From a virus: a DNA stretch of 27,593 bases. The notes beneath the pieces are model-generated. The model saw only the letters and a program-made list of their open reading frames with translations. It was not told where the DNA came from and did no database searches. How positions within the stretch are numbered: position 1 is the first letter of the stretch; each line of letters opens with the position of its first letter. The stretch spans positions 1-27,593 of the IMG/VR virus record IMGVR_UViG_3300017730_002400; one strand, 5' to 3'. The translations under genes and the position numbers were made by a program. Of this stretch, positions 185-24,239 are shown piece after piece.

Positions 185-2017
185 ATGGAAAAACCTTACA
201 ATACGCATTTGTGTACATTCATGGGCCGGCAAAATAATTTAGAGATTCTTCTGTATTATGTCGAACAAGCATTAGAAATTGAAGCTGTAGATAATTATCA
301 TATGATCGACATGACTAGAACCATGCATGATCATGAGTTTATATATGCCGAGCAACAGAGACTCAACGAGAAATATCCCGGTCGTGTGCATCTAGTCAAT
401 AGAGATCTACGTGGCAAACAATTACGGGATGGTAGCTGGAAAGCGACATTAGGCTTGTGGTCACCCTTCTATAAGTACTGCAAGCAGTTTAAAAATAATG
501 ATGTAATAATCAAGTGTGATGACGACACTTTGTTTTTTGATGTTAATACACTAAAGCAAGCCGCGGAACTTAGATGGAAAAACAAGAGCCCGTTCTTGAT
601 GCATGCTAATACTATAAACAACGGAATATGCGCATATCATCAAGCTAAAAAAGGTGTATGGAAAAACTTAGATCCTATCATCAAAAAATACCCAACAAGC
701 GGATTGACCGGGCCGTTGTTCTCACATCCAGATTTGGCGTGTGATTGTCACGAACAATTTATAACTGATATCTCGAAATCCTTAGACAACCTAAAAAAAT
801 ATAAATTAAAAGAAAATATATACTTTACAGCTCGAGTGTCGATAAATTTTATTTTTATGTTAGGTGAGGACCGAGAGCATCTTGTCGATATTGATTCACA
901 GGATGAATATGTCACAAGCTCTAAAATAGGGCAAGAGCTAGATCGACCTAACATGATAATAGGTGATTTTATCGCGGCGCATCACACGTATGGAGTACAG
1001 GAGCCGGTGATGGAGGAACGTAAAACGTATGAACAATATGTGGGGCTGCGTGATGCTTTGACAGATACTAAGTGGTCGAATCAAGAAATCTGTATGAAAT
1101 TTAACAACACTACCACTATAAAGCATGATGGGAATTACATCATGAAATATTGGTGTAACCAAAACAGTTACATGATCAAGAATTCCAGTAATGACCAATA
1201 CATATCTCTTGACTGGGACGTGAAGGAGCGAGAGAAGGTTGTTGACAACAGGACGAAGATCAAAACAGGCACGTCATATCACAACACAACTATGGCGAGT
1301 TGTGATACTGACGGAGGTATATTCAATCTGAATATCGATGACGTGACCATGATTCAGATACAGGATTGTACAGAAATTTTAAGATCTGAAGATCAAAACA
1401 AAAACACGAATCAATTTTTATGTTGGCCGGTCAAGACTTGGTTTCGTCAAAATTATAAAAAACAATTGTGCAAGTTACACAAGCAAGCAGATGATACATA
1501 TTTGATTGAATCTAATTCAAACCCTGGTTATTATCTATCAGCACAGTACGTTAATGAGAACAAAACACTTTACCGGTTCAAAGAGCACGGATCAGGAGTT
1601 GACACATGGGTTTTAGAGCCGATGAAAAAACATCATAACAAAGCTGTCTCTGCGACAATCCATCGACCAAATATCCACGTCACTGAAAATGATCCAACAT
1701 ATGCTACAACAATAGGATTGCCAAGCAACAGAATTTACCGAGAGTATTATTGGATGGTGAGTGATTACATATGGGAGATACAGAAGATAGGAGACAAGCA
1801 CTGTCACATCAAGCTCGTAGCGGATGACAAACAACCATTGTACTTGTCATATGACAATAAAAATAAAATTGTTAGAGTGACACCAAATAAACAAAAATGG
1901 TCCATTACAAGTAAAGGTATACAACACGTACCGACAAAAAAGTTTTTAGAGGTAAATAATGACGTGATAACACTGACTGACAAAGGCTCTCAGCTTAGAA
2001 TTAAATATGAAGATTAA
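185..2017 (+). CDS. Glycosyltransferase-like protein with C-terminal beta-trefoil-like region
   Basis: This 610-residue protein has an N-terminal half resembling phage GT-A-type glycosyltransferases. It has an opening LCTFMGR segment, a YHMIDMTR segment and an acidic DDD triad at residues 112-114 preceded by VIIKC, as expected for metal and nucleotide-sugar binding. The C-terminal half (about 320-610) has repeated patterns such as YLIESNSNPGYYLS and YLSYDNKN, which look like a ricin- or fascin-type beta-trefoil and could bind carbohydrate. It is the first gene behind a perfect late promoter and overlaps glf by 11 bases, so it probably uses sugars made by the downstream enzymes. Acceptor and donor are unknown. 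The GT assignment is moderate; the trefoil is a guess from repeat pattern. Confidence 0.6.
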   Translation: MEKPYNTHLCTFMGRQNNLEILLYYVEQALEIEAVDNYHMIDMTRTMHDHEFIYAEQQRLNEKYPGRVHLVNRDLRGKQLRDGSWKATLGLWSPFYKYCKQFKNNDVIIKCDDDTLFFDVNTLKQAAELRWKNKSPFLMHANTINNGICAYHQAKKGVWKNLDPIIKKYPTSGLTGPLFSHPDLACDCHEQFITDISKSLDNLKKYKLKENIYFTARVSINFIFMLGEDREHLVDIDSQDEYVTSSKIGQELDRPNMIIGDFIAAHHTYGVQEPVMEERKTYEQYVGLRDALTDTKWSNQEICMKFNNTTTIKHDGNYIMKYWCNQNSYMIKNSSNDQYISLDWDVKEREKVVDNRTKIKTGTSYHNTTMASCDTDGGIFNLNIDDVTMIQIQDCTEILRSEDQNKNTNQFLCWPVKTWFRQNYKKQLCKLHKQADDTYLIESNSNPGYYLSAQYVNENKTLYRFKEHGSGVDTWVLEPMKKHHNKAVSATIHRPNIHVTENDPTYATTIGLPSNRIYREYYWMVSDYIWEIQKIGDKHCHIKLVADDKQPLYLSYDNKNKIVRVTPNKQKWSITSKGIQHVPTKKFLEVNNDVITLTDKGSQLRIKYED

Positions 2018-3092
2018 TATATTCGGATGTGGTATGAGCGGCACGGTAGCTGCTGTGATATTAAAAGAGATGGGACACGATGTAGAGATTTTCGAAGTTC
2101 GAGATCATATAGGAGGTAATTGTTATGATGAAAAAAATGAGGATGGGTGCACCGTACATAAGTATGGTAGTCACATATTTCATACCAATGATGAAAAAGT
2201 TTGGAAATTCTTAAACAAATATACAAAATTTAACAGTTATGAACACCGGGTCAGAGCCAACACGAGCGAGGGTCAGATCAGTATACCATATAATAAAAAA
2301 ACAGAAGAACAGCTCGGCCGGGAACTCACTGGTGATGAGATTCATCAGATACTCTTCAAACAGTACTCAGAGCGACATTGGGGAGTGCCTTGGGAAGAGC
2401 TACCAAAAACAATAACCGGGCGGGTACCGAAAAAGAGAGACAACGATGATGACAGGTATTTTACAGACAAGTATCAAGGAATACCAGCGGAAGGCTACAC
2501 AGCTATGTTTAAAAATATGCTCAATGGTATAAAGGTCAATCTAGGCGTTGAGCGTGATCTATACAGACGGTTAAAGGCTGACCTAGTTATCTGGACCGGT
2601 ACAATATCATCCTACTATGACAATTATTTTGGTCATTTACCTTACCGGTCGTTGATCTTTAAACACCATCGAGTACCGGCAGATAAGAATTATACTTGGG
2701 ACAAAGGAGCTGTAATAAATGAATGTAATGAGTTACCATACAACAGGACAATGGATAACAGTGTGTATTTGAATGAGACGGTTGATTATACTATACATAC
2801 ACGCGATCATCCAGAAGAGTATGTACCTGGAGTTAATATGCCAATATATCCAAAGACATTCGGGAACGGTCCAGAGATTTACAAGCAGTATGTCGATCTA
2901 GCCAAAACTGATAAAAATGTTATGTTTCTTGGTAGGCTCGCGACATACAAGTACCTAGACATGTGGATGGCAGTTGCTCAAGTCATGTCTAAAATAAAAA
3001 ATAGTGGTATAGAAAAGGCCCGAACAACCACCGGTAATGTCATTGACCTGTACCAACCACCGTGGGACTGGACTGAAGAAGGAGAGCCATGA
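2007..3092 (+). CDS. glf: UDP-galactopyranose mutase
   Basis: A flavoenzyme that interconverts UDP-galactopyranose and UDP-galactofuranose in the cytoplasm. The 361-residue protein opens with a Rossmann FAD motif, GCGMSG at residues 7-12, and then has HDVEIFEVRDHIGGNCYDE, the family's FAD-binding segment. The KYGSHIFHTND block and the YSERHWG and GRVPKKR regions are also typical of Glf. Its length is close to the usual 365-390. The start lies inside the preceding gene and the stop overlaps the next start as ATGA, so it should be translationally coupled. It supplies a galactofuranose donor, presumably for the upstream glycosyltransferase or another phage transferase. Confidence 0.92.
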   Translation: MKINIFGCGMSGTVAAVILKEMGHDVEIFEVRDHIGGNCYDEKNEDGCTVHKYGSHIFHTNDEKVWKFLNKYTKFNSYEHRVRANTSEGQISIPYNKKTEEQLGRELTGDEIHQILFKQYSERHWGVPWEELPKTITGRVPKKRDNDDDRYFTDKYQGIPAEGYTAMFKNMLNGIKVNLGVERDLYRRLKADLVIWTGTISSYYDNYFGHLPYRSLIFKHHRVPADKNYTWDKGAVINECNELPYNRTMDNSVYLNETVDYTIHTRDHPEEYVPGVNMPIYPKTFGNGPEIYKQYVDLAKTDKNVMFLGRLATYKYLDMWMAVAQVMSKIKNSGIEKARTTTGNVIDLYQPPWDWTEEGEP

Positions 3093-4024
3093 AAATACTT
3101 GTAACCGGAGCCACTGGGCTGGTCGGTACTGCCGTTCAGCGTGTGAGTAAGTCATTGTTCCCAGAATATAACATGACATTTATATCTAGTAAGGACTGTG
3201 ACCTATTAGATCTAGAGCGAACTACATCTACATTTAAAACCCACTCACCAGATTGTGTACTACATCTAGCTGCGGATGTAGGAGGTCTGTACAAAAACAT
3301 GAATCAAAAAGTACAGATGTATGAAAATAATCTGATCATGAACTACAACGTGATCAAATCATGCTATCATAACAACATAAAGCAATTAGTTGGAATGTTA
3401 TCAACATGTATATTTCCGGATGATATAGAATATCCAATTGATGAAACTAAATTAACACTCGGCCCGCCACATGCTTCAAATGATGCTTACGCATATGCCA
3501 AGCGTATGTTCAAGGTTCAATGCGATGCATATAATGATCAATATAACACCAATTATAATTGTGTTATTCCAGCCAATATATATGGTATAAATGATAATTA
3601 CGATCTAAATGATGCTCACGTAATACCCGCGTTGATACACAAAGGGTACCTCGCAAGAGATCAAGGAGATATTTTCGAGGTATTAGGCACTGGTGAACCT
3701 TTGAGACAGTTCATATATAGTGATGACCTAGCAGAGATCATTTTACGATTATTACCCACACTGAATCAAGATAGTGTCATAATAACAAACCCTCAAGAAT
3801 ATAAAATTAAAGAAGCGGCGACATATATTGCTGAAGCTTTTGAAATAGAGGCGCGGTTGAAGTTTCAACCAACAGCGAGTGATGGTCAGTACCGAAAACA
3901 AGCTAGTGTCGATCACATGCTGAAGTTATTAAATACTGATATTTTTCAGTTCACATCCCTGAAAGACGGAATAGACAGGACTGTAAAACATTTTATAGAT
4001 AATTATCCAAATTTAAGAATATGA
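3089..4024 (+). CDS. fcl: GDP-L-fucose synthase (epimerase/reductase)
   Basis: Converts GDP-4-keto-6-deoxymannose to GDP-L-fucose with NADPH. It belongs to the short-chain dehydrogenase/extended SDR family: GATGLVG near the N terminus is the nucleotide-binding glycine motif, LHLAADVGG follows, the catalytic serine lies in the STCIFPD segment and the Tyr/Lys pair lies in AYAYAKR. The STCIFPD and NIYG motifs are characteristic of Fcl/WcaG. At 311 residues it is a normal family length. An AAGGAG-like Shine-Dalgarno precedes the ATG, and it overlaps glf and gmd by ATGA junctions. It follows Gmd in the pathway although the gene lies upstream of gmd. Confidence 0.88.
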
Positions 4025-5025
4025 AAATAGCATTAATAACAGGAATAACTGGACAGGACGGCTCATATTTAGCTGAACTGTTGTTAGAGAAAGGATACGA
4101 AGTCCATGGAATGGTTCGACGATCGTCAATGATTAACACACATCGAATCGATCATATATTTGACAAAATAACATTACACTATGGTGATCTTTCTGATAGT
4201 ACAAATGTAATCAGAATAATCAAGGAAACACAACCTGACGAGATATACAACTTAGGTGCCATGAGCCATGTTAAGGTGAGCTTCGACGTCCCTGAGTACG
4301 TTGCGGATATTGACGGTGTTGGAACTCTAAGAATTTTAGAAGCAGTCAGATTGTTAGACATGACTAAGAAGACTAGAATATACCAAGCATCAACAAGTGA
4401 GCTATACGGTAAGGTACAAGAAGTACCACAGACAGAAGCAACACCATTCTATCCAAGATCACCATACGGGGTCGCTAAATTGTACGGTTATTGGATCACG
4501 AAAAATTACAGAGAAGCATATGACATGTTCGCGTGTACTGGTGTACTATTTAATCATGAGAGTCCAAGACGTGGAGAGACATTCGTTACAAGAAAGATAA
4601 CAATGGCGCTCAACAAAATTATAAACGATTCAGACGCAAAACTAACTTTAGGAAATTTAGATTCTAAAAGAGATTGGGGACACGCGAAAGATTACGTTGA
4701 GGGTATGTGGAGAATGTTACAAGCTGACAAGCCAGGTGATTATGTTCTATCTACAAACGAGTTTCATAGTGTGAGAGAATTTGTTGAAAAGGCCTTCGCG
4801 TTGAAAGGGTTTGATATCAAGTGGATGAATTCCGGGTTGAATGAGATTGGTTATGACGAGAACACAGGAAGAGAGTTAATATTTGTTTCAGAAAAATATT
4901 TCAGACCAACAGAGGTTGATGAGCTATTAGGCGATTCAACTAAAGCCAGGACAGAGCTAGGGTGGGAACCATTAACAACATTCGATCAGTTAGTAGAAGA
5001 GATGGTATCAGAGGACTGTAAATGA
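4021..5025 (+). CDS. gmd: GDP-mannose 4,6-dehydratase
   Basis: Makes GDP-4-keto-6-deoxy-D-mannose from GDP-mannose, the first committed step to GDP-L-fucose. The 334-residue protein starts with [20 protein letters not shown], close to a family signature, followed by GMVRRSS, the QASTSELYG catalytic block and [11 protein letters not shown] with the YxxxK pair. [15 protein letters not shown] is also highly conserved in Gmd. It is slightly shorter than the E. coli enzyme (about 373). It overlaps fcl upstream and the dehydrogenase downstream by four bases each, so the group should be one translationally coupled unit. GDP-mannose itself must come from the host. Confidence 0.93.
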
Positions 5026-5852
5026 AGATTGGTGTTATAGGTAATGGATTTGTTGGTCACGCCATGTCAGTATTGTCACCGGCGGTTGAAATATTATTCT
5101 GGGATTTGGAGCCATCAAAGAGATGCCCACACCATCTAACTATAGACCAGCTAGTTAAAGAATCTGAAATCGTATTTATATCCGTACCAACACCGATGGA
5201 TGCCTCTGGGAACTGTCATACTGATATCGTCGAAAGTGCAGTGCGTGAAGTACAATCTATTGACTCGAATAAACATATTGTTATACGATCCACAGTCCCT
5301 CCTGGTACATCTGATAGATTGGGTGTGAGTTTCATCCCTGAATTTCTCACTGAAAAGAACTGGAAGAGTGATTTTATAAATTGTGAGCAATGGATTATCG
5401 GGTCTAGTGATTATGGACTAGTATCTAAAATTACGAGTATGATCGATTCAGCCTATAAGTGTAAGTTAATATACAATAATAATGTTATACATGTAACAAC
5501 TAAAGAAGCTGAAATGATAAAATACGTCAAAAACTGTTTCCTCGCTACAAAAGTTAGTTTCTTTAATGAGATGTATCGCTTGTGTGAGAAGACTTCGATT
5601 AATTATGAGACAGTCCGGAAATTATCTGCAGAGGACAGCAGAATTGGAGAAGGTCACACGAAGGTACCTGGACATGACGGAAAAGCTGGTTTTGGTGGTA
5701 CATGCTTTCCTAAAGATATGTGGGCATTGTTACGTTTTATGGAGGAAAATAATGTATCTAGCCATGTCGTTTATGGTGCATTAACTAGGAATGAAACGAT
5801 CGATCGTGAAGAAAAAGACTGGACTGATGATAAAGGCAGAGCTAGCCTCTGA
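5022..5852 (+). CDS. Nucleotide-sugar dehydrogenase, shortened (UDP-glucose/GDP-mannose type)
   Basis: Resembles the UDP-glucose/GDP-mannose dehydrogenase family, which oxidises a sugar C6 alcohol to a uronic acid in two NAD-dependent steps. Visible are the Rossmann motif [24 protein letters not shown], the central [14 protein letters not shown] helix and GGTCFPKD with the catalytic cysteine. The protein is only 276 residues and stops soon after that cysteine, so the C-terminal substrate-closing domain (about 100 residues) of the usual 400-450 residue enzymes is absent. It is either a naturally short phage form or one that acts on another substrate or not at all. The substrate cannot be told from sequence. 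Last gene of the sugar operon. Confidence 0.8.
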
Positions 5853-15132: not shown

Positions 15133-16062
15133 CTACTGCTTAGCAGTCTTGACGTGCATTACATGTACATCAATTAACTTCTTGTTGAGTATACTCTTAT
15201 CGCTAGCTCTAGTTGGATTGATATCGATACCACCTCGTCGAGCGTATAAGCATGAAACGACTAGAGTCTCAGGATTTAATATATCAAACATCCTCTTGTA
15301 TACTGTTTCACATATCTCTTCATGAAAGTGACACTCATCTCGGAAAGAGATTATATACTTCAATAACGATAACGGTGTTACCATTTTGTCTGCGATATAA
15401 CTAATATATATGTCACCCCAATCTGGTTGACTTGTCACGCGACAATTACTCTTTAATAAGCTGCTATGGTGATGAATCGGCTTCCCAACACGCGATGCCG
15501 GCCACTTTTCTGATAATACTAATAGAGATGGATCCTCTTGATATGTTTTAAATGGTGTCTCGTATAATCTCCTTCTGTCTACAATTGATTCTAGTGTCGA
15601 GTATTTGTGAGCGTTAAAAACGTTTTCTCCCATGGGTATGATATAGCTAGGCTCGATATGAACGTTAACTGTCGTTTCTAGTAAGTTACTGAGATCGAAA
15701 GACGCTCTATTAGCAATAAAGCTCAAGACATCCTCCTCATCACTACCGCACTTGTACATATTGAATGAATTAAAGTATAGCTTAATACTCTTACTCTCAA
15801 CAATACACTTACTATCACACGAATATACAATTTTAGCCACACCTGAAACCGGTAGTCCGTTCTCAGTCAATCCACTAACTTCATACGCATTCCATGTATC
15901 ATAACCAACGAATGGTAGATCGGTGTCGATTATATCGAGATGCTTTCTATTATTTGCTCTAGGCTCTGCAACTAACAAGTCAGGATCATACTGATCTTTA
16001 TATTCAGATACTTGACCTAAATGCTTTGAAATTTTACTATTATCTAATACTTTGTTACTCAT
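15133..16062 (-). CDS. queF: NADPH-dependent 7-cyano-7-deazaguanine reductase, long form (QueF)
   Basis: Reduces the nitrile of preQ0 to the aminomethyl of preQ1 using NADPH. At 309 residues it is the two-domain type, like the E. coli enzyme of about 280. ESKSIKLYFNSFN (89-101) is the conserved QueF segment of the N-terminal half. LLKSNCRVTSQPDWG (203-216) holds the catalytic Cys207, which forms the thioimide with preQ0, and Asp214. CHFHEEICE (244-252) supplies the His/Glu of the substrate pocket. All key residues are present. It overlaps the kinase gene by ATGA and is last in the operon that begins with the DpdA-like gene. That context points to modification of phage DNA rather than tRNA. 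Confidence 0.92.
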   Translation of the reverse strand: MSNKVLDNSKISKHLGQVSEYKDQYDPDLLVAEPRANNRKHLDIIDTDLPFVGYDTWNAYEVSGLTENGLPVSGVAKIVYSCDSKCIVESKSIKLYFNSFNMYKCGSDEEDVLSFIANRASFDLSNLLETTVNVHIEPSYIIPMGENVFNAHKYSTLESIVDRRRLYETPFKTYQEDPSLLVLSEKWPASRVGKPIHHHSSLLKSNCRVTSQPDWGDIYISYIADKMVTPLSLLKYIISFRDECHFHEEICETVYKRMFDILNPETLVVSCLYARRGGIDINPTRASDKSILNKKLIDVHVMHVKTAKQ

Positions 16063-16643
16063 TTTAAATTGTTTATATGCGTATGTATAGTGCTCATCCT
16101 CTCATCAACATTACCTGATAGACGGACTATTTTCCTTCTCCAAGTATCACGTCCCGGGGTACTGAGTGAGTTTGATATAAGATCTTCGTATATCTTAATA
16201 ATCTCGTTACGGAAATCTACATTAACACTACGTTCACCATCATCTTCTATAGGTACATCCCTAGGATCAGTATAGAAGATTATATCTAAATGCTTACCTA
16301 ATAAGTTGAGAAGGTTGCCAGCATATGTTAGAACCCAGGTATCAACTGCACCTTGTTCACATAACCACTTAGTATATATGTAGCCATCCAATATACACCT
16401 ATCTAGTATCCACTTCTCTGACTTAGATACAGTATGGTTTTGTAAGTGTTCCTTTAATATAAAAAGCTGAGTTAAATTATCACCATCCTCATTGATACTC
16501 CAACCATCTCTCATTACCTTCCGCGTTACTTCATCTACAAAATTCCACCCCTTTTTATCTGATGGTACACATAATTCTTCTTTACACCTATTCAGCAGAG
16601 TTGTCTTGCCTGTGCTTTGTGCTCCTGTGAAACCAACTAACAT
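16059..16643 (-). CDS. P-loop kinase/ATPase, NadR-like AAA_28 type
   Basis: A 194-residue protein with a clean Walker A, GAQSTGKTT, at residues 6-14, then FVDEVTRKVM and KWILDRCILDGYIYTKWL, where the DR is typical of nucleotide or nucleoside kinases. Later comes a TDPRDVPIEDDGERS lid-like stretch. This architecture is seen in NadR-type ribosylnicotinamide kinases and in phage proteins annotated AAA_28 or deoxynucleotide kinase. The substrate cannot be read from the sequence; a nucleoside, nucleotide or NAD precursor is possible. A -10-like TATAAT sits six bases before the ATG, and the end overlaps queF. Confidence 0.7.
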   Translation of the reverse strand: MLVGFTGAQSTGKTTLLNRCKEELCVPSDKKGWNFVDEVTRKVMRDGWSINEDGDNLTQLFILKEHLQNHTVSKSEKWILDRCILDGYIYTKWLCEQGAVDTWVLTYAGNLLNLLGKHLDIIFYTDPRDVPIEDDGERSVNVDFRNEIIKIYEDLISNSLSTPGRDTWRRKIVRLSGNVDERMSTIHTHINNLK

Positions 16644-16649
16644 AATATT

Positions 16650-16678
16650 ATTATAATATATCTCCTGTCAGAATGCTA
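16650..16678 (-). promoter_or_regulatory. Possible sigma70-type promoter for kinase-queF
   Basis: On the - strand TAGCAT (16673-16678) and TATAAT (16650-16655) are separated by 17 bases. The -35 is weak, but resembles the TTGCAT of the clp gene. The -10 ends six bases before the ATG at 16643, the same spacing as at dpdA. Confidence 0.4.
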
Positions 16679-16682
16679 CACA

Positions 16683-17054
16683 TCATCTCGGAAAGTTGTG
16701 GCTATCTTGTGTTATATGTTGAAAGTCCATCTCTTCTTCTGTTGGATCTTCTCCCACAAAGCTTTTATCCTCCGTCCACATGGCACATAGCATGTTCCAC
16801 ACAACCGCTGCCGCGTGATCTTCATCAGTTTCTCCAGCCCACCATGCATCTAGATGCCGGTGCGCGCAGTCATAAAACACGCTCAATGGCATGCCTTTCA
16901 TCCAGTTGTTCTCACCATACTTCTCCGCGCCATCTAGGTATCTTTTCATCACCCGTTTCAGCGCTTTCCGTGGTATAAGACTCATTCGAAGTTTACCTTC
17001 TCCTGTGTCGCGTTGTGCTCCTGTATCGAATTGTCTATTCTTCTCTTCCATCAT
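16683..17054 (-). CDS. MazZ-like dATP/dGTP pyrophosphohydrolase (DUF5664 type)
   Basis: This 123-residue protein carries the signature of the family that includes phage MazZ: FDTGAQRDTGEGKLRMSLIP near the N terminus, GAEKYGENNWMKG in the middle, RHLDAWWAGE, and EDHAAAVVWNMLC with the metal-binding acidic residues. Known members convert dATP and/or dGTP to the monophosphate and pyrophosphate. No PurZ or DatZ partner is visible here, so diaminopurine DNA is not implied. In this operon it may adjust the deoxyguanosine or deoxyadenosine pool during 7-deazaguanine modification. It overlaps the small membrane-protein gene by 20 bases. Confidence 0.75.
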   Translation of the reverse strand: MMEEKNRQFDTGAQRDTGEGKLRMSLIPRKALKRVMKRYLDGAEKYGENNWMKGMPLSVFYDCAHRHLDAWWAGETDEDHAAAVVWNMLCAMWTEDKSFVGEDPTEEEMDFQHITQDSHNFPR

Positions 17055-17244
17055 TAATATCTTTTGCGTCCTTGTGTTGATAGTGTGGGTGATATGTCCA
17101 TAAACCGCACCACGCGGCCATGGCCATCGAGAATACCGCGATCATTGAACCTTGGCGAGTGAGTATAATTGCTAATATAACATTAATGATACATGCTATT
17201 ACGAGCATTCGGCCTTGAAAGTTTAGATTTCTCCATGGAGCCAT
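17035..17244 (-). CDS. Small membrane protein, unknown
   Basis: A 69-residue protein starting at the ATG at 17244, which overlaps the preceding stop as TGATG; a GTG one codon upstream is less likely. Residues about 12-30 (MLVIACIINVILAIILT) and about 33-50 form two hydrophobic segments, and the C-terminal tail is charged (HKDAKDINDGREE). No family recognised. Coupled translation with both neighbours places it in the dpdA operon, but its role is unknown. Confidence 0.55.
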   Translation of the reverse strand: MAPWRNLNFQGRMLVIACIINVILAIILTRQGSMIAVFSMAMAAWCGLWTYHPHYQHKDAKDINDGREE

Positions 17245-17774
17245 CACTGCTTACCAACAATTTTAGGTCCAGCTCGATTCCAAAGATCAACCTCACATGC
17301 GCTAACACGCTCACAAGTAGTAGTAAATTTTTTAACATCACCTGTATTATCTCTCTTTCTTGTTAAACCTCTCTTCTCAATCTCAACACAATCAATTAAA
17401 TCAGTGCCATTATATCCATTTTCGTAAGAGGTACTAAGTAGACCATCCGGATGTTGAAATCCAACAATAAGACCAAATTTACTAATACCAGCAGTCTTTT
17501 TACATATAATATCTCCGAGCTCGAGTATCGTTGATGTATTAAATTTAAAGTTTTCATCTATTAATTTACATTTCTTGGCGGGGATTTTTTTAATTTTAAA
17601 GCTACCGTCATGGCGGTTCACTGGTTTGAGTCTCTTATCATATACAATGATTTCATACTTGTCATTAGCTAGCATGTTATACACTTCACCGACGGTTGTT
17701 TTACCGTCGACTCTATACTTAACAACGCTACCGACTTCAACATCATCATCTCTATTAATTTTTAATCTTCTCAT
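17244..17774 (-). CDS. Unknown 176-residue protein of the dpdA operon
   Basis: The gene overlaps its upstream neighbour by 20 bases and its downstream neighbour by one. The N-terminal third (VEVGSVVKYRVDGKTTVGEVYNM) looks like a small beta-barrel of KOW/SH3 type, followed by a basic KIKKIPAKKCKL stretch and a beta-rich C-terminal half with several cysteines. I recognise no catalytic motif. A nucleic-acid or partner-binding role would suit the fold guess, but that is speculation. Confidence 0.6.
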   Translation of the reverse strand: MRRLKINRDDDVEVGSVVKYRVDGKTTVGEVYNMLANDKYEIIVYDKRLKPVNRHDGSFKIKKIPAKKCKLIDENFKFNTSTILELGDIICKKTAGISKFGLIVGFQHPDGLLSTSYENGYNGTDLIDCVEIEKRGLTRKRDNTGDVKKFTTTCERVSACEVDLWNRAGPKIVGKQ

Positions 17775-18006
17775 ATTGTTTCTCTGCTAGTTTTTCTGAA
17801 TGTATCATTGCTAGCTTTTTTTGTTCGTATGTTAGGTTATTATCTAAAAATGCATGGGTGTGTTTTAGATTCAAATCAATCGCTGGTATATTCATATCAA
17901 TCGTTATCTTATGATCTAATGTTATGTGATGTTCTGTCTTGATAAAGGATGAACAACTAGCAGTAAAAGTCATAAGTGCTGCCGCGATTGATGTGTGTTT
18001 GATCAT
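17755..18006 (-). CDS. Small lipoprotein
   Basis: An 83-residue protein with a short positive N terminus, a hydrophobic stretch and the lipobox TASC, giving Cys18 as the lipidated residue after signal peptidase II cleavage. After that comes HHITLDHKITIDMNIPAIDLN, an alternating beta-like segment, and a helical charged tail ending EKQYEKIKN. It is fused by ATGA overlap to the formyltransferase gene. A periplasm-facing lipoprotein in a DNA-modification operon is unexpected; superinfection exclusion or a spanin-like role are possibilities without further support. Confidence 0.6.
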   Translation of the reverse strand: MIKHTSIAAALMTFTASCSSFIKTEHHITLDHKITIDMNIPAIDLNLKHTHAFLDNNLTYEQKKLAMIHSEKLAEKQYEKIKN

Positions 18007-18530
18007 TTTTGATTAAATAGGTCTAACCACAATTCTGTAGCCATTTCATGTAAACGGCAACTTATTTGTTTTTCGCCGGAATACACATTATGTGTTGATG
18101 ACTCTGCAATTACAGGTCCTTCATCAACTCCAGGAGTAACACGATGAACAACGCACCCGATGTGTGAGTATTCCGGATCGGTCTCTGCTGCACGCTTTTG
18201 GGGGTCTGCTCCTTTTAGTTCAGGGTATTTAGTTATAAGACCTGGATGTAAGTTGTATATCTCATACTCCTCGCAGATCTCCGGAGGTATTATTCTCATC
18301 CATCCGTGAAGTGTGACTACAGTATCCGGTTGAAACAAATTTCGGTAATCTGTAACCGATGGTCTATTAGGTGTGTACACCACCTCCGTTAAATCTTTAT
18401 TAATGTCACCAGAAGTAGGTGCCTTGTTAGTTATAATCACATCCGGTGATCTTTTTAACCGGGAAGATATCTTTATTATTTCAGATCCTGTATGACTGAA
18501 AAGAGCTGTCCAATGTTTTCCGTTAATCAT
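18003..18530 (-). CDS. dpdN: Formyltransferase, PurN fold; candidate dPreQ1 formyltransferase (DpdN-like)
   Basis: A 175-residue formyltransferase-fold protein. The catalytic triad of the 10-formyl-tetrahydrofolate-dependent family is intact: Asn93 and His95 in YNLHPGLITKYPELKG, and Asp136 in VHRVTPGVDEGPVI. HTGSEIIKIS near the N terminus replaces the GSGSNL-type nucleotide loop of PurN. True PurN (about 210 residues) formylates glycinamide ribonucleotide. Here the gene overlaps dpdA by one base and shares an operon with queF, whose product preQ1 has a free primary amine. Published work on phage 7-deazaguanines predicted a formyltransferase named DpdN that makes 7-(formylamino)methyl-7-deazaguanine, and this gene fits that role. 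The family is firm; the substrate is inference. Confidence 0.75.
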   Translation of the reverse strand: MINGKHWTALFSHTGSEIIKISSRLKRSPDVIITNKAPTSGDINKDLTEVVYTPNRPSVTDYRNLFQPDTVVTLHGWMRIIPPEICEEYEIYNLHPGLITKYPELKGADPQKRAAETDPEYSHIGCVVHRVTPGVDEGPVIAESSTHNVYSGEKQISCRLHEMATELWLDLFNQK

Positions 18531-19348
18531 TATCTACCTAATATCTTCTTAAACATTCTCGTATTGTATTTTATAGTATCTAATTCACAATCCGTAACTT
18601 TATGATCAATTAAATCAGCTAACAATGTTTTTGGTTTTTGATATAAGCCCATACTATCATTATATCTCAAACCTTTAATACCGGCAACTACAGGGTTACT
18701 GGTATCCACACTACGAATATTGTAGATATTATTATCCACGTAATATTTAAACTCTCTCGCTAAACTACATCCTAATAAATGATGCGGCTTCTCCCAATTC
18801 CAATAACCCTCATCAATCAATTGACTAATAAATCGTTTCCTTCCGGAACTATATTTAACTAACTCCATTGGGGCCCAATCATCCTCTACCAACCCGGTCA
18901 TTTGATAGTAACTATAATCGAAACTGATAGCAATATAGTCCGCCCGGTCTTTCATGAAGTTATAACATCTTACCAGGTCATTCCAATTCTTGCCCTGTAC
19001 CACCCCAATTCTCAGTGCGTCTGTATTATCTGTATAATTACCTTCCCAGTCTTTCCATTGCTGTATTGTATCAGAACAACTCTCTAGTACATCTGGTACA
19101 ATATACCAATTAGGTTTTAACTTATCGATCCACCCGGCATACTTCTTCCTGTCAAATGATTTACCTAACTCAAATATACTATTATCCAACAAAACCGGTT
19201 TCTCGCCATATAATACCATCTTTGCATAATGGCTGTAATAATCTGGATGTGTTTCAAACAAGTGAACTAGAGCGTACCCGTAATCATTGTATTCGTCTGC
19301 CTCATCAAATATACTAATAGGGCTCTCATGTGATACTTCAATCTTCAT
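18530..19348 (-). CDS. dpdA: DNA guanine transglycosylase, DpdA-like (TGT superfamily)
   Basis: A 272-residue relative of tRNA-guanine transglycosylase that in phages swaps guanine in DNA for a 7-deazaguanine. Segments match the TIM-barrel pattern: LLDNSIFELG (53-62), YIVPDVLES with Asp86, RIGVVQGKNW (113-122), AISFDYS, HHLLGCSLAREF (189-200) and SVDTSNPV with Asp215, the likely nucleophile. It is shorter than bacterial TGT (about 375) and lacks the C-terminal zinc site, as in phage DpdA forms. First gene of the operon that also holds the formyltransferase and QueF. A consensus promoter ends six bases before its ATG. Which DpdA subfamily it belongs to cannot be settled by eye. Confidence 0.82.
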   Translation of the reverse strand: MKIEVSHESPISIFDEADEYNDYGYALVHLFETHPDYYSHYAKMVLYGEKPVLLDNSIFELGKSFDRKKYAGWIDKLKPNWYIVPDVLESCSDTIQQWKDWEGNYTDNTDALRIGVVQGKNWNDLVRCYNFMKDRADYIAISFDYSYYQMTGLVEDDWAPMELVKYSSGRKRFISQLIDEGYWNWEKPHHLLGCSLAREFKYYVDNNIYNIRSVDTSNPVVAGIKGLRYNDSMGLYQKPKTLLADLIDHKVTDCELDTIKYNTRMFKKILGR

Positions 19349-19417: not shown

Positions 19418-21877
19418 ATGAAAGACATTCCAAACCTATCACCGGCTAGCCGCCGCGCGTTGTTATCAGCCAAGACTATCGCACGGGACTGTAACCACGA
19501 ATTCTTAACTACAGAGCATATATTATTAGCTCTATTAGACCGTAAGACAGAAACCATGGGTATAAAGGTAATGAGACGTGAAGGAATGGATCTAGAGGCT
19601 TTCCGAGCGTTTATAGTATCTAATCTATCTAAGTGGAAGGGGACTGAATCCCCAGATATAGATCAAATTGAACCAAGTGCACGAATGTTAAGTATGTTGA
19701 GTTATGCTAGTTGTGTAGCTCAAGAACTAGGATGTGAGCTGATACAGGTCGATCACCTATTATTGAGTATATTAGTAAGTGATACAGGCACAGGTAACAA
19801 CCTTTTTCGTCTTAAGAATATCGATACTAGTGATTTATATGAAGCGATATACCTCGAACTAGAACCAGCTAAGAAGCCGCGAAATAAATCTAAAGCTAAA
19901 CAAGCTGCTGCTGGTGGTAGAGATCGCGAACCAGCAGACGGTACAGTAGAGATGAGCAGCTTAACTGATTATGCCGTGAATTTAACTGATGAGGCAGCTA
20001 ATAAGCAATTAGATCCTGTTATAGGTAGAGAAGACGAGCTACAGGATATGATACAAATATTAAGCCGACGAACGAAAAATAATCCAGTGTTAATTGGAGA
20101 CCCAGGCGTAGGTAAGACAGCTGTAGTTGAAGCGCTAGCGCAGAGAATAGTATTAGGAGATGTACCATACGGATTAAAAGACAAGCAAATATATGCACTT
20201 GACCTAGCCAGATTAGTGGCCGGTACTATTTACAGAGGACAATTTGAAGAGAGATTAAAAGCTGCCATATCATTTGTCACATCTAGACCGGATATCATTC
20301 TATTTATAGACGAATTACATATGCTCGTAGGAGCTGGTAGCACCACCGGTAGTATGGACGCTAGTAATATACTAAAGCCAGCATTAGCGAGAGGAAAAAT
20401 ATCATGCATAGGTGCTACAACAACTATGGAATATAAAGAGCATATAGAGGGAGACGGTGCACTAGAACGTCGTTTCCAGACTGTTATTATAGATCAACCA
20501 TCATCTGCAGATACCCTTGAAATACTAAAGGGTATAAAACATAAATATGAAGTGTATCATAACGTTAAGTATAGCCAATTAGTGCTCAATACTATTGTAT
20601 CGTTATGTGATAGATATATGCCAGAGAAAAGCTTTCCTGATAAGGCTATTGATATACTCGATGAGGTTGGAGCAAAATCACGGGTAAGTCAATATAGTAA
20701 GAGAACTGACGTGCTTGACACATATAAAGAGTTAGATGTTGTTATACAGAAAAAAGAGGCTGCAGTGCTAACACAAAAATTCACTGAAGGTATTAAACAC
20801 CGTACCAGGGAGATGGAATTAAGAGATAAGCTAATAGAGCAAGATCAAGCGTATATCGATGATCAAGAAAAGGAATTTAAAACCATCCGGATTACCCCAA
20901 ATTGTGTAAATCAACTAGTATCTGACAGAACCGGTGTACCTGTAACAAAGCTACAGGAAGGAGAAGCAACCGTGCTCAATACTCTTTCTAAGAGAATATC
21001 CAGCAGAGTAGTCGGGCAATCTGGTGGTATAGATAAAATTGTTAATAGTATTAAGCGTAGTAGAGCGGGTATCAGTAACCCTGATAAGCCTATATGCTCT
21101 CTATTGTTTCTCGGACCAACAGGTGTCGGTAAAACACATCTAGCTAGATGTATGGGTGAAGAAATGTTTGACAGTAATAGCTTCAAGCAATTCGACATGT
21201 CAGAGTTTACTGAAAAGCATAGCGTTAGTAAGTTTATCGGAGCCCCTCCAGGTTATGTAGGCTACGGTGAAGGTGGTGCATTAACAGAGTTTGTTAGATT
21301 TAATCCTTACTGCGTCTTGTTATTTGATGAGATTGAAAAGGCTCATCCAGAAGTAATGCAGATATTCTTACAGTTGCTCGAGTATGGTGTACTTACGGAT
21401 AGTGAAGGACTGGAGGTCAATTTTAAAAACACAATTATTGTGATGACCAGTAATATAGGCTCACATAAGTTCGAGAAAGGCACAAGTGTCGGCTTTGGAA
21501 GTGCTGAGTTGTCTATCGAACAAGCAGTACATGAAGAGATCGAGAAGCTGTATCCCCCAGAATTTTTAAATAGAATAGATGAGACGATCGTATTTAATAA
21601 GCTTGAGCCTAGTGAGTTAATAATCATATGTAATATCCTACTGAAGGATTTGAAGAGAAACATACGAAAAAATGCTAACCGTAAGATTGTTATAGATGAG
21701 GATGTATCACAGTATATTGTGGATCAGATTGTAAACAACAAGTATGGTGCCAGGCCAATCAAACGCTGTATAACAAAATGTATAGAGACTCCGCTAGCGG
21801 ATCACATAATATCGACCGTCAATTCAACTGAATGCATTAACGTAAGTGTTGTTGAGGATGTTATTGCTATATCTTAG
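19418..21877 (+). CDS. clpC: ClpA/ClpC-type AAA+ unfoldase
   Basis: An 819-residue, two-ring Hsp100 ATPase. Residues 1-150 are two Clp-N repeats (LTTEHILLALL; QVDHLLLSIL). Module D1 has Walker A GDPGVGKT (about 227) and Walker B IILFIDELH; module D2 has GPTGVGKT (about 566), LLFDEIEKAHPEV and NRIDE. The middle insert is short, as in ClpC and unlike ClpB. A VGF tripeptide (about 691-693) follows TSNIGS in D2, at the place of the ClpC loop that docks ClpP, so it probably feeds a protease rather than only disaggregating. No ClpP gene is in the window, so host ClpP is the likely partner. Large ClpC-like proteins are uncommon in phages. Confidence 0.9.
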   Translation: MKDIPNLSPASRRALLSAKTIARDCNHEFLTTEHILLALLDRKTETMGIKVMRREGMDLEAFRAFIVSNLSKWKGTESPDIDQIEPSARMLSMLSYASCVAQELGCELIQVDHLLLSILVSDTGTGNNLFRLKNIDTSDLYEAIYLELEPAKKPRNKSKAKQAAAGGRDREPADGTVEMSSLTDYAVNLTDEAANKQLDPVIGREDELQDMIQILSRRTKNNPVLIGDPGVGKTAVVEALAQRIVLGDVPYGLKDKQIYALDLARLVAGTIYRGQFEERLKAAISFVTSRPDIILFIDELHMLVGAGSTTGSMDASNILKPALARGKISCIGATTTMEYKEHIEGDGALERRFQTVIIDQPSSADTLEILKGIKHKYEVYHNVKYSQLVLNTIVSLCDRYMPEKSFPDKAIDILDEVGAKSRVSQYSKRTDVLDTYKELDVVIQKKEAAVLTQKFTEGIKHRTREMELRDKLIEQDQAYIDDQEKEFKTIRITPNCVNQLVSDRTGVPVTKLQEGEATVLNTLSKRISSRVVGQSGGIDKIVNSIKRSRAGISNPDKPICSLLFLGPTGVGKTHLARCMGEEMFDSNSFKQFDMSEFTEKHSVSKFIGAPPGYVGYGEGGALTEFVRFNPYCVLLFDEIEKAHPEVMQIFLQLLEYGVLTDSEGLEVNFKNTIIVMTSNIGSHKFEKGTSVGFGSAELSIEQAVHEEIEKLYPPEFLNRIDETIVFNKLEPSELIIICNILLKDLKRNIRKNANRKIVIDEDVSQYIVDQIVNNKYGARPIKRCITKCIETPLADHIISTVNSTECINVSVVEDVIAIS

Positions 21878-23276: not shown

Positions 23277-24206
23277 CTACTTATGATCTAATGATGGCTT
23301 CTCTTGTGGATCTACCGGTATAATTTTAATCAGGTACGGAAATGACTTACCACCTGGCTTTTTCTTCTTCGATGGACCGTCCTCAGATGATATCGTTTCG
23401 ATTGGTAATTTCTCTATATCAGCCATCGATGGCATTTTAACTTTTGGGTCGAGAGCCCACATAATATCATGCTCTTTCGCCCATTTCTTCATCCTCCGAA
23501 TAGGTACCATCAGATTAAAACCTTCTCCGGCTCCACGGACTATCATACCAACATATTCTCCAGTCTGTAAGAATACACCTCCACCAGAGCTTCCTGGAAA
23601 TGCAGTTACAGTTGTTTGATCATATTCGGCTTTACCATGTATTCTTCCAACTTGCGATACAATTCCACTCGTCATACTATTAGCTCCCATTTGTCCCAAT
23701 AGCGACCCTACGTGAAACAGGGGGGTACCAATTGGTATGATAGGCTCACTATTATCAAGATAAAAACGCCCTGAGGCTTTGCCATAGTCCCTAGCTCTTA
23801 CCATTAATACAGCTAGATCTTCACCATCATCTGCGTCACTATACTTAACGACTACAGCATCCATCTTAATCTCACCAACTCTACGACCGGATTCTACTAG
23901 TTCTTTAACTATCTGTACATCATCGAACTCTACAATCTTCTTCGAAGCACCATTCTTAATAACTGTTCTAACTGATCTGAGGTTATCTATCACATGACCG
24001 CATGTCCATACAAAGGTAACTTTCTCTTTTCCGATTGTTCTAGTGATTAATATACCAGAGCCTTCTGATCTGCTGTATTTACCTTGAGATTTAATAGTGA
24101 CAGATATATCTTGTAGATACTCCGACACCTTTCTTGTCTCAGCAGGCGATAGTGCAAGTAATGGATTTAATAATAGAACGAGTGATAGTGTATAAAGTAG
24201 CTTCAT
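23277..24206 (-). CDS. Secreted trypsin-like serine protease
   Basis: A 309-residue protein. I start at the ATG at 24206 rather than the upstream one at 24239, because a late-type octamer sits five bases before it and the resulting N terminus MKLLYTLSLVLLL...ALS is a clean signal peptide. The mature part has the chymotrypsin-fold triad: His71 in WTCGHVI, Asp130 in GEDLAVL and Ser207 in FPGSSGGGVF, in the DegP/HtrA-like order, and GYV-like YVGMIVRG follows. There is no PDZ domain; the C-terminal 70 residues are lysine- and proline-rich. It should act in the periplasm or outside. Phage-coded exported proteases of this kind are rare. Confidence 0.82.
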   Translation of the reverse strand: MKLLYTLSLVLLLNPLLALSPAETRKVSEYLQDISVTIKSQGKYSRSEGSGILITRTIGKEKVTFVWTCGHVIDNLRSVRTVIKNGASKKIVEFDDVQIVKELVESGRRVGEIKMDAVVVKYSDADDGEDLAVLMVRARDYGKASGRFYLDNSEPIIPIGTPLFHVGSLLGQMGANSMTSGIVSQVGRIHGKAEYDQTTVTAFPGSSGGGVFLQTGEYVGMIVRGAGEGFNLMVPIRRMKKWAKEHDIMWALDPKVKMPSMADIEKLPIETISSEDGPSKKKKPGGKSFPYLIKIIPVDPQEKPSLDHK

Positions 24207-24211
24207 ACACA

Positions 24212-24219
24212 TACTTATT
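24212..24219 (-). promoter_or_regulatory. Late-type promoter for the secreted protease
   Basis: AATAAGTA on the - strand (six of eight to TATAAATA), five bases before the ATG at 24206, matching the CATAAGTA-N5-ATG at 22155. It supports the later start codon. Confidence 0.5.
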
Positions 24220-24239
24220 AGGGTATCTACGTTATACAA

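Follow-up and report, generated by a model that had tools for sequence, protein, structure and literature searches.

A small-type DpdA operon with a kinase partner as a candidate kit for 7-deazaguanine substitution in a marine phage

Formylated dPreQ1 is on record in phage DNA, and we take the formyltransferase of Flavobacterium phage vB_FspM_immuto (NC_055915) to be the published DpdN example. In the Campylobacter phage CP220 group (Firehammervirus), dG is reported to be replaced by 2′-deoxy-7-amido-7-deazaguanosine (dADG), the final base being amido and not formyl. Here we describe an operon related to both in the IMG/VR record IMGVR_UViG_3300017730_002400, a virus contig of 27.6 kb that may be a genome fragment; "the window" below is this whole stretch of 27,593 nucleotides. 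The operon (positions 15133–19348, minus strand) encodes a small DpdA with the fold of tRNA-guanine transglycosylases (TGT), a PurN-fold formyltransferase, a kinase-like protein and QueF. We read it as a small-DpdA-type kit for 7-deazaguanine substitution, and slightly favour insertion at the nucleotide level. Judged from the gene content, guanine in the DNA of this marine phage is probably replaced by a formylated 7-deazaguanine, and whether the base would enter at the nucleotide level is about an even call. This second point depends mainly on the kinase, which accompanies small-type DpdA almost without exception.

The operon and its closest described relatives

The window shares the gene order DpdA–formyltransferase–kinase–QueF with immuto, its closest named relative, at protein identities of 46% (DpdA), 44% (formyltransferase), 32% (kinase) and 46% (QueF). 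It is a further dPreQ1-formylation operon of the immuto, DpdN-type kind. The two differ in their surroundings: immuto has folE, queD and queE beside the operon and QueC elsewhere in the genome, whereas none of them was matched among the scanned ORFs of the window; immuto carries a PRA-PH gene and not the PF18909 gene of the window, and two unknown genes are extra in the window. In the CP220 group, a DpdA 40% identical to that of the window is followed by a related kinase; there is no formyltransferase, the DpdA region holds no QueF, and a gene with HD and P-loop domains lies upstream. The order DpdA–formyltransferase–kinase–QueF recurs, as far as each contig extends, in 26 IMG/VR loci that were fetched by the formyltransferase alone, which excludes a chance arrangement.

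A preliminary description, made from the letters of the window, had proposed a three-gene pathway of DpdA, formyltransferase and QueF. All three minus-strand open reading frames (ORFs) are present where it placed them, but the pathway was incomplete: it passed over four ORFs between the formyltransferase and QueF, namely an 83-aa ORF, a 176-aa ORF, a gene of a deoxynucleoside triphosphate (dNTP) pyrophosphohydrolase family (PF18909) and the kinase-like gene. The genes are tightly packed. The one-base overlap of DpdA and formyltransferase noted earlier is real (junction TAATG), and further overlaps join the formyltransferase to the 83-aa ORF (4 bases), the 83-aa to the 176-aa ORF (20 bases) and the kinase to QueF (4 bases).

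The DpdA (272 aa, 18530–19348, minus strand) matched no model in Pfam or NCBIfam; PHROG 19058, of unknown function, does match it. Its AlphaFold2 model (pLDDT, predicted local distance difference test, 93.9) gave PDB fold matches that are all TGT, with E down to 6e-8, which bears out the TGT-type assignment of the preliminary description. D55, D86, Q118, H190, G193 and D215 are invariant in an alignment with 14 relatives, and by inspection the motif order equals that of E. coli TGT (DSGGFQ, FDEC, IIQG, YLMG, IDMFD) and of the TGT-like DpdA (DpdA1) of Enterobacteria phage 9g. R170 and K238 are likewise invariant. The zinc domain of TGT is missing. Because hhalign comparisons of the DpdA profile with single TGT and 9g sequences were not significant, the TGT claim rests on the fold search. 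The protein thus combines the barrel fold with the Asp/Gln/Asp catalytic and base-binding motifs of the DpdA/TGT superfamily, and it is kin in sequence to the CP220-type and immuto DpdA: the best matches in named phages are the annotated immuto DpdA (gp206) and an unannotated CP220 protein. This small type is presumably the subfamily called "DpdA3". Candidate specificity positions that separate DpdA with from DpdA without a formyltransferase (73, 91, 92, 123, 212 and 233) are confounded by phylogeny.

The formyltransferase (175 aa, 18003–18530, minus strand) scores 51 bits against Formyl_trans_N (PF00551). Its best-scoring named family is PurN, as one would expect of an ordinary phage PurN that boosts purine synthesis and sits in the operon incidentally. 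Such a role is very improbable. The protein reaches 47 bits against the NCBIfam PurN model, whose cut-off is 150, and in a tree with E. coli PurN, PurU and Fmt, a cyanophage PurN and a gut-phage relative, the 28 DpdA-linked formyltransferases, including that of immuto, form one clade away from PurN (support 96/94, stem of 3.58 changes per column). Score and clade together rule out identity as PurN, the glycinamide ribonucleotide (GAR) formyltransferase. Moreover, the loop by which PurN binds the phosphate of its substrate, SGNGSN, is replaced by S[HQ]TGSE in this clade, and DpdA stands directly before the formyltransferase in 26/26 IMG/VR loci with enough flank, with no adjacent pur genes. The enzyme is therefore not a purine-pathway PurN, in agreement with the preliminary description.

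The catalytic triad that had been reported for the window protein, Asn93/His95/Asp136, is present, intact and invariant across the family alignment. HGW and KGxDPQ motifs are peculiar to the clade, and such special motifs would, as expected, fit a new substrate. The gene set of QueF, DpdA and formyltransferase may well reflect dPreQ1 formylation. That the final base is instead plain dPreQ1 or another derivative, in a kit of either level, with the PurN-fold enzyme acting on some other substrate such as a metabolite, is improbable. The clade's own substrate-site residues (SxTGSE, HGW, KGxDPQ) would agree with this, as would the other tailoring-like enzymes that occupy the same operon slot in relatives; against it stand the intact triad, the formylated dPreQ1 on record in phage DNA, and the fact that all family members with sufficient flank have DpdA/QueF as neighbours. 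No second strong member of the family was found in 14 phage or virus genomes searched whole.

QueF (309 aa, 15133–16062, minus strand), the preQ0 to preQ1 reductase, has the two domains QueF_N and QueF (PF14819 and PF14489; 108 and 87 bits) and keeps the catalytic Cys207 and Asp214; it is full-length, as described before. Its nearest solved relative is the NADPH-dependent QueF 3bp1 (E 3e-45). Against NCBIfam it scores 237 bits, under the QueF equivalog cut-off of 293 and above that of QueF-II. No preQ0 gene (folE, queD, queE or queC) matched among the scanned ORFs of the window, itself possibly a fragment, in line with the preliminary description. The latter had left the source of preQ0 between the host and genes elsewhere in the phage genome. 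The phage genome is the likely source, because QueC and QueD each occur in 6/8 large relatives and both are present in immuto and CP220.

The kinase as partner of DpdA

The kinase-like protein (16059–16643, minus strand) belongs to AAA_28 (PF13521, 55 bits). Among solved structures its profile comes nearest to thymidylate kinases, deoxynucleoside kinases and NadR, and its model (pLDDT 86) resembles deoxynucleoside kinases and thymidylate kinase in fold. P-loop, DR motif and lid arginines are all found and are invariant or nearly so. An acidic residue at position 38, presumably the catalytic base of nucleoside kinases, is absent in 3/14 relatives, and for this reason the protein may lean weakly toward a nucleotide kinase.

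We scanned IMG/VR with a DpdA profile, which returned >550 relatives, and examined the best 80; 55 of these had at least 4.5 kb of downstream sequence. In these DpdA-selected loci, the kinase lies downstream in 54/55 and QueF in 54/55, while the formyltransferase is found in 32/55 and PF18909 in 12/55. A separate scan with the kinase found DpdA in 56/56 loci whose upstream sequence was long enough. Once the loci had been clustered at 90% identity, 53 of 54 non-redundant loci have the kinase, 53 have QueF and 43 the formyltransferase, in a set that pools in kinase-scan loci and so favours the kinase by selection. Among named phages, 18 records contain a strong DpdA match, and all 18 contain the kinase. 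Since some large genomes in the kinase comparison were chosen via the kinase, the unbiased figures are 54/55 and 18/18. The minimal cassette consists of the three genes DpdA–kinase–QueF, set among virion genes. Given these synteny counts and the three-gene cassettes, the kinase counts as core and the formyltransferase as a tailoring enzyme that the kit can lack.

In named phages the kinase reaches E < 1e-10 in Campylobacter phages and immuto only, and it stays at or below 16 bits in eight other 7-deazaguanine phages (9g, CAjan, Dp-1, 7-11, HVTV-1, pf16, Vibrio 2.275 and nt-1, the last at 15 bits). These same eight, which have other 7-deazaguanine gene sets, contain no small-type DpdA. For 9g, the DpdA itself gives no detectable match with our A1 profile.

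Campylobacter phage CC_R7 (PQ092953) appeared to be an exception, with kinase matches and no DpdA by BLAST. Its weaker kinase match (57 bits) lies directly after an unrecognised small-type DpdA of 246 aa (E 5.5e-21). This unannotated pair (103384–104727, in the order QueC–DpdA–kinase–DNA polymerase) sits at another genomic place than the DpdA–kinase pair of CP220-type phages. Phage phiST has a divergent small-type DpdA (hidden Markov model E 4e-13, fold match with TM scores of 0.84/0.88) whose neighbour is a P-loop protein from another family (AAA_18); MazG, FolE, QueE and QueD come next. AAA_18 domains lie near DpdA in relatives of phiST as well.

A second, distant paralogue of the kinase is present in CP220-type phages, where in Campylobacter it lies between the topoisomerase II and dUTPase genes, and in six large IMG/VR genomes. 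In the kinase tree, 34 DpdA-linked kinases stand together (85/87), and CP220, immuto and one IMG/VR locus (L026) form long, unresolved branches, so that a single origin of the kinase is not supported. The DpdA–kinase core and the model that it implies have apparently not been stated before, and a key 2023 paper may partly cover them.

Exchange on free nucleotides or in finished DNA

The best explanation for so constant a kinase is that the exchange yields a free nucleotide or nucleoside in need of phosphorylation. In the pathway that we propose, preQ0 from the host or from a phage QueC would be reduced to preQ1 by QueF. The PF18909 enzyme would convert dGTP into dGMP, and on dGMP (or deoxyguanosine) DpdA would swap guanine for the deazaguanine base. 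The PurN-fold enzyme would formylate the aminomethyl group at some point along the route. The dedicated kinase would phosphorylate the modified nucleotide, which may not be accepted by the kinases of the host, and the rephosphorylated product would enter DNA through the phage polymerase. We infer the QueF, exchange and formylation steps from families and synteny. A shared polymerase type did not emerge, a family A polymerase being found in immuto only.

There are precedents for such chemistry. In Z-phages, DUF5664 and MazZ make deoxynucleoside monophosphates and DmtZ swaps bases on them (PMC12884076, PMC8342488). The parallel that we propose to the Z-genome pathways (PurZ/MazZ/DatZ and DutZ/DmtZ/DUF5664) consists of a dNTP pyrophosphohydrolase, a base change at the monophosphate level and incorporation by the polymerase. 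The key step itself is not homologous: there it is carried out by PurZ or the NDT-fold DmtZ, in the window by TGT-fold guanine exchange together with an own kinase. For Campylobacter phages, then without a recognised DpdA, a modified-dGTP route has been proposed earlier (PMC6884629).

Candidate pool-acting enzymes are encoded near DpdA. In the group of the window, the slot before the kinase is filled by the PF18909 (DUF5664) gene, a dATP/dGTP diphosphohydrolase-family protein (16683–17054, minus strand; Pfam 81 bits). A characterised phage DUF5664 protein hydrolyses dATP/dGTP, from dNTP to dNMP and pyrophosphate (PMC12884076). In immuto, PRA-PH is the immediate upstream neighbour of DpdA; in locus L226 it lies a short way upstream, and MazG stands before DpdA in L227. 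An inorganic pyrophosphatase (PF00719, 166 bits; L054:8230-8742) is encoded between kinase and QueF in one locus and fits a pathway that releases pyrophosphate. In 21 loci, a 115-aa ORF lies between formyltransferase and kinase; with a weak DUF1599 match in one member and a weak Imm42 match in another, it has no assignable family and is not counted as a pyrophosphohydrolase. PF18909 or the 115-aa family occurs only in formyltransferase-bearing loci (34/43 vs 0/11 non-redundant loci, phylogeny uncontrolled). Locus scans ruled out both MazG and PF18909 as universal DpdA partners, and PF18909, found in 741 phage records, was rejected as a specific marker.

Several points weigh against exchange on free nucleotides, and they lead to the alternative that DpdA exchanges guanine in finished DNA, that QueF supplies preQ1 and that the formyltransferase acts on the free base or on DNA. 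The kinase would then be an ATPase partner, a salvage enzyme for modified nucleotides or part of ordinary dNTP supply. In support of this, plasmid DNA in E. coli becomes modified when the DpdA of phage 9g is present together with Gat-QueC (PMC6884629). The DpdA of the window has the motif order of both 9g DpdA and TGT, and its motifs and charge resemble those of 9g DpdA, so that its sequence alone cannot separate a DNA from a nucleotide substrate; charge or pI is non-discriminating as an indicator of DNA binding, TGT and 9g DpdA being acidic too. A 2023 paper by Cui et al. on these derivatives, which PMC12783734 cites, reportedly concluded that insertion is post-replicative. Furthermore, at one locus (L065) neither kinase nor QueF accompanies DpdA within 6 kb, and the fold of the kinase is as close to nucleoside as to nucleotide kinases. 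PF18909 is common in unrelated phages, and the DpdA scan found no known pyrophosphohydrolase family beside DpdA in 23 formyltransferase-free loci. Because they are common elsewhere or not universal, we give these pool-acting neighbours less weight than the kinase.

Exchange in finished DNA is a serious alternative, to which we nevertheless give clearly less than even chances. It leaves unexplained why small-type DpdA has a near-invariant kinase even in three-gene cassettes, why the kinase is absent with other DpdA types and why an unrelated AAA_18 P-loop protein occupies the kinase slot in phiST. Exchange on the free deoxynucleotide is therefore favoured over it. The more specific proposal is that small-type DpdA is a TGT-fold 2′-deoxyribose-5-phosphate transferase acting on free dGMP, which with the kinase and pyrophosphohydrolases makes modified dGTP, while other operon slots hint at undescribed derivatives. 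This we put forward tentatively, as something that falls a little short of an even chance.

Further genes and biological meaning

Several other genes recur around small-type DpdA. L227 has MazG and a DUF3310 ORF directly before DpdA (182-789); DUF3310 is also part of T7 gp1.7, whose annotation is nucleotide kinase. One of the fuller clusters, L224, assembles a QueE-like ORF, QueD, FolE, DpdA, formyltransferase, kinase, QueF, QueC and PRA-PH in ~11 kb. The fuller clusters or phages L030, L202, L220, L224 and L226 each include a phosphoribosyltransferase gene (confirmed by Pfam in the last three), which is also annotated in immuto and phiST; the enzyme could salvage the guanine released by the exchange. 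Inside related operons we saw a tryptophan-halogenase-family protein (255 bits, L103:6807-8390), ornithine-cyclodeaminase-family proteins (L049:7906-8826 and, by sequence likeness, L052:9395-10321) and a cupin (L047:6804-7253). It is possible that these are tailoring enzymes for undescribed deazaguanine derivatives.

In the window itself, the 83-aa ORF with its hydrophobic N-terminus (17755–18006, minus strand) and the 176-aa ORF (17244–17774, minus strand) encode proteins without a family match in Pfam or PHROG and are conserved in the marine subgroup of the window only. The operon lies in a T4-like head region, with the gene of the Gp23 capsid protein just past QueF. A ClpA/ClpB-like AAA+ unfoldase with a Clp_N domain (19418-21877) is transcribed divergently from the operon, and an ORF for an HtrA/trypsin-like serine protease (23277-24239; Trypsin_2, 51 bits) has a called TTG start. 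Upstream of the virion genes, a sugar cluster (185-5852) contains a glycosyltransferase-like gene, UDP-galactopyranose mutase, two nucleotide-sugar epimerases and a UDP-glucose-dehydrogenase-family match.

Views have differed on whether 7-deazaguanines enter phage DNA ahead of replication or after it, and the constant kinase partner makes this question directly testable. If small-type DpdA indeed works on dGMP, it would be the second natural family of deoxyribose-5-phosphate transferases after DmtZ, built on another fold, and could offer a route to the enzymatic synthesis of 7-deaza-dNTPs. The modified-dGTP route would then be the guanine counterpart of the Z-genome pathway, and it would explain the complete replacement of G.

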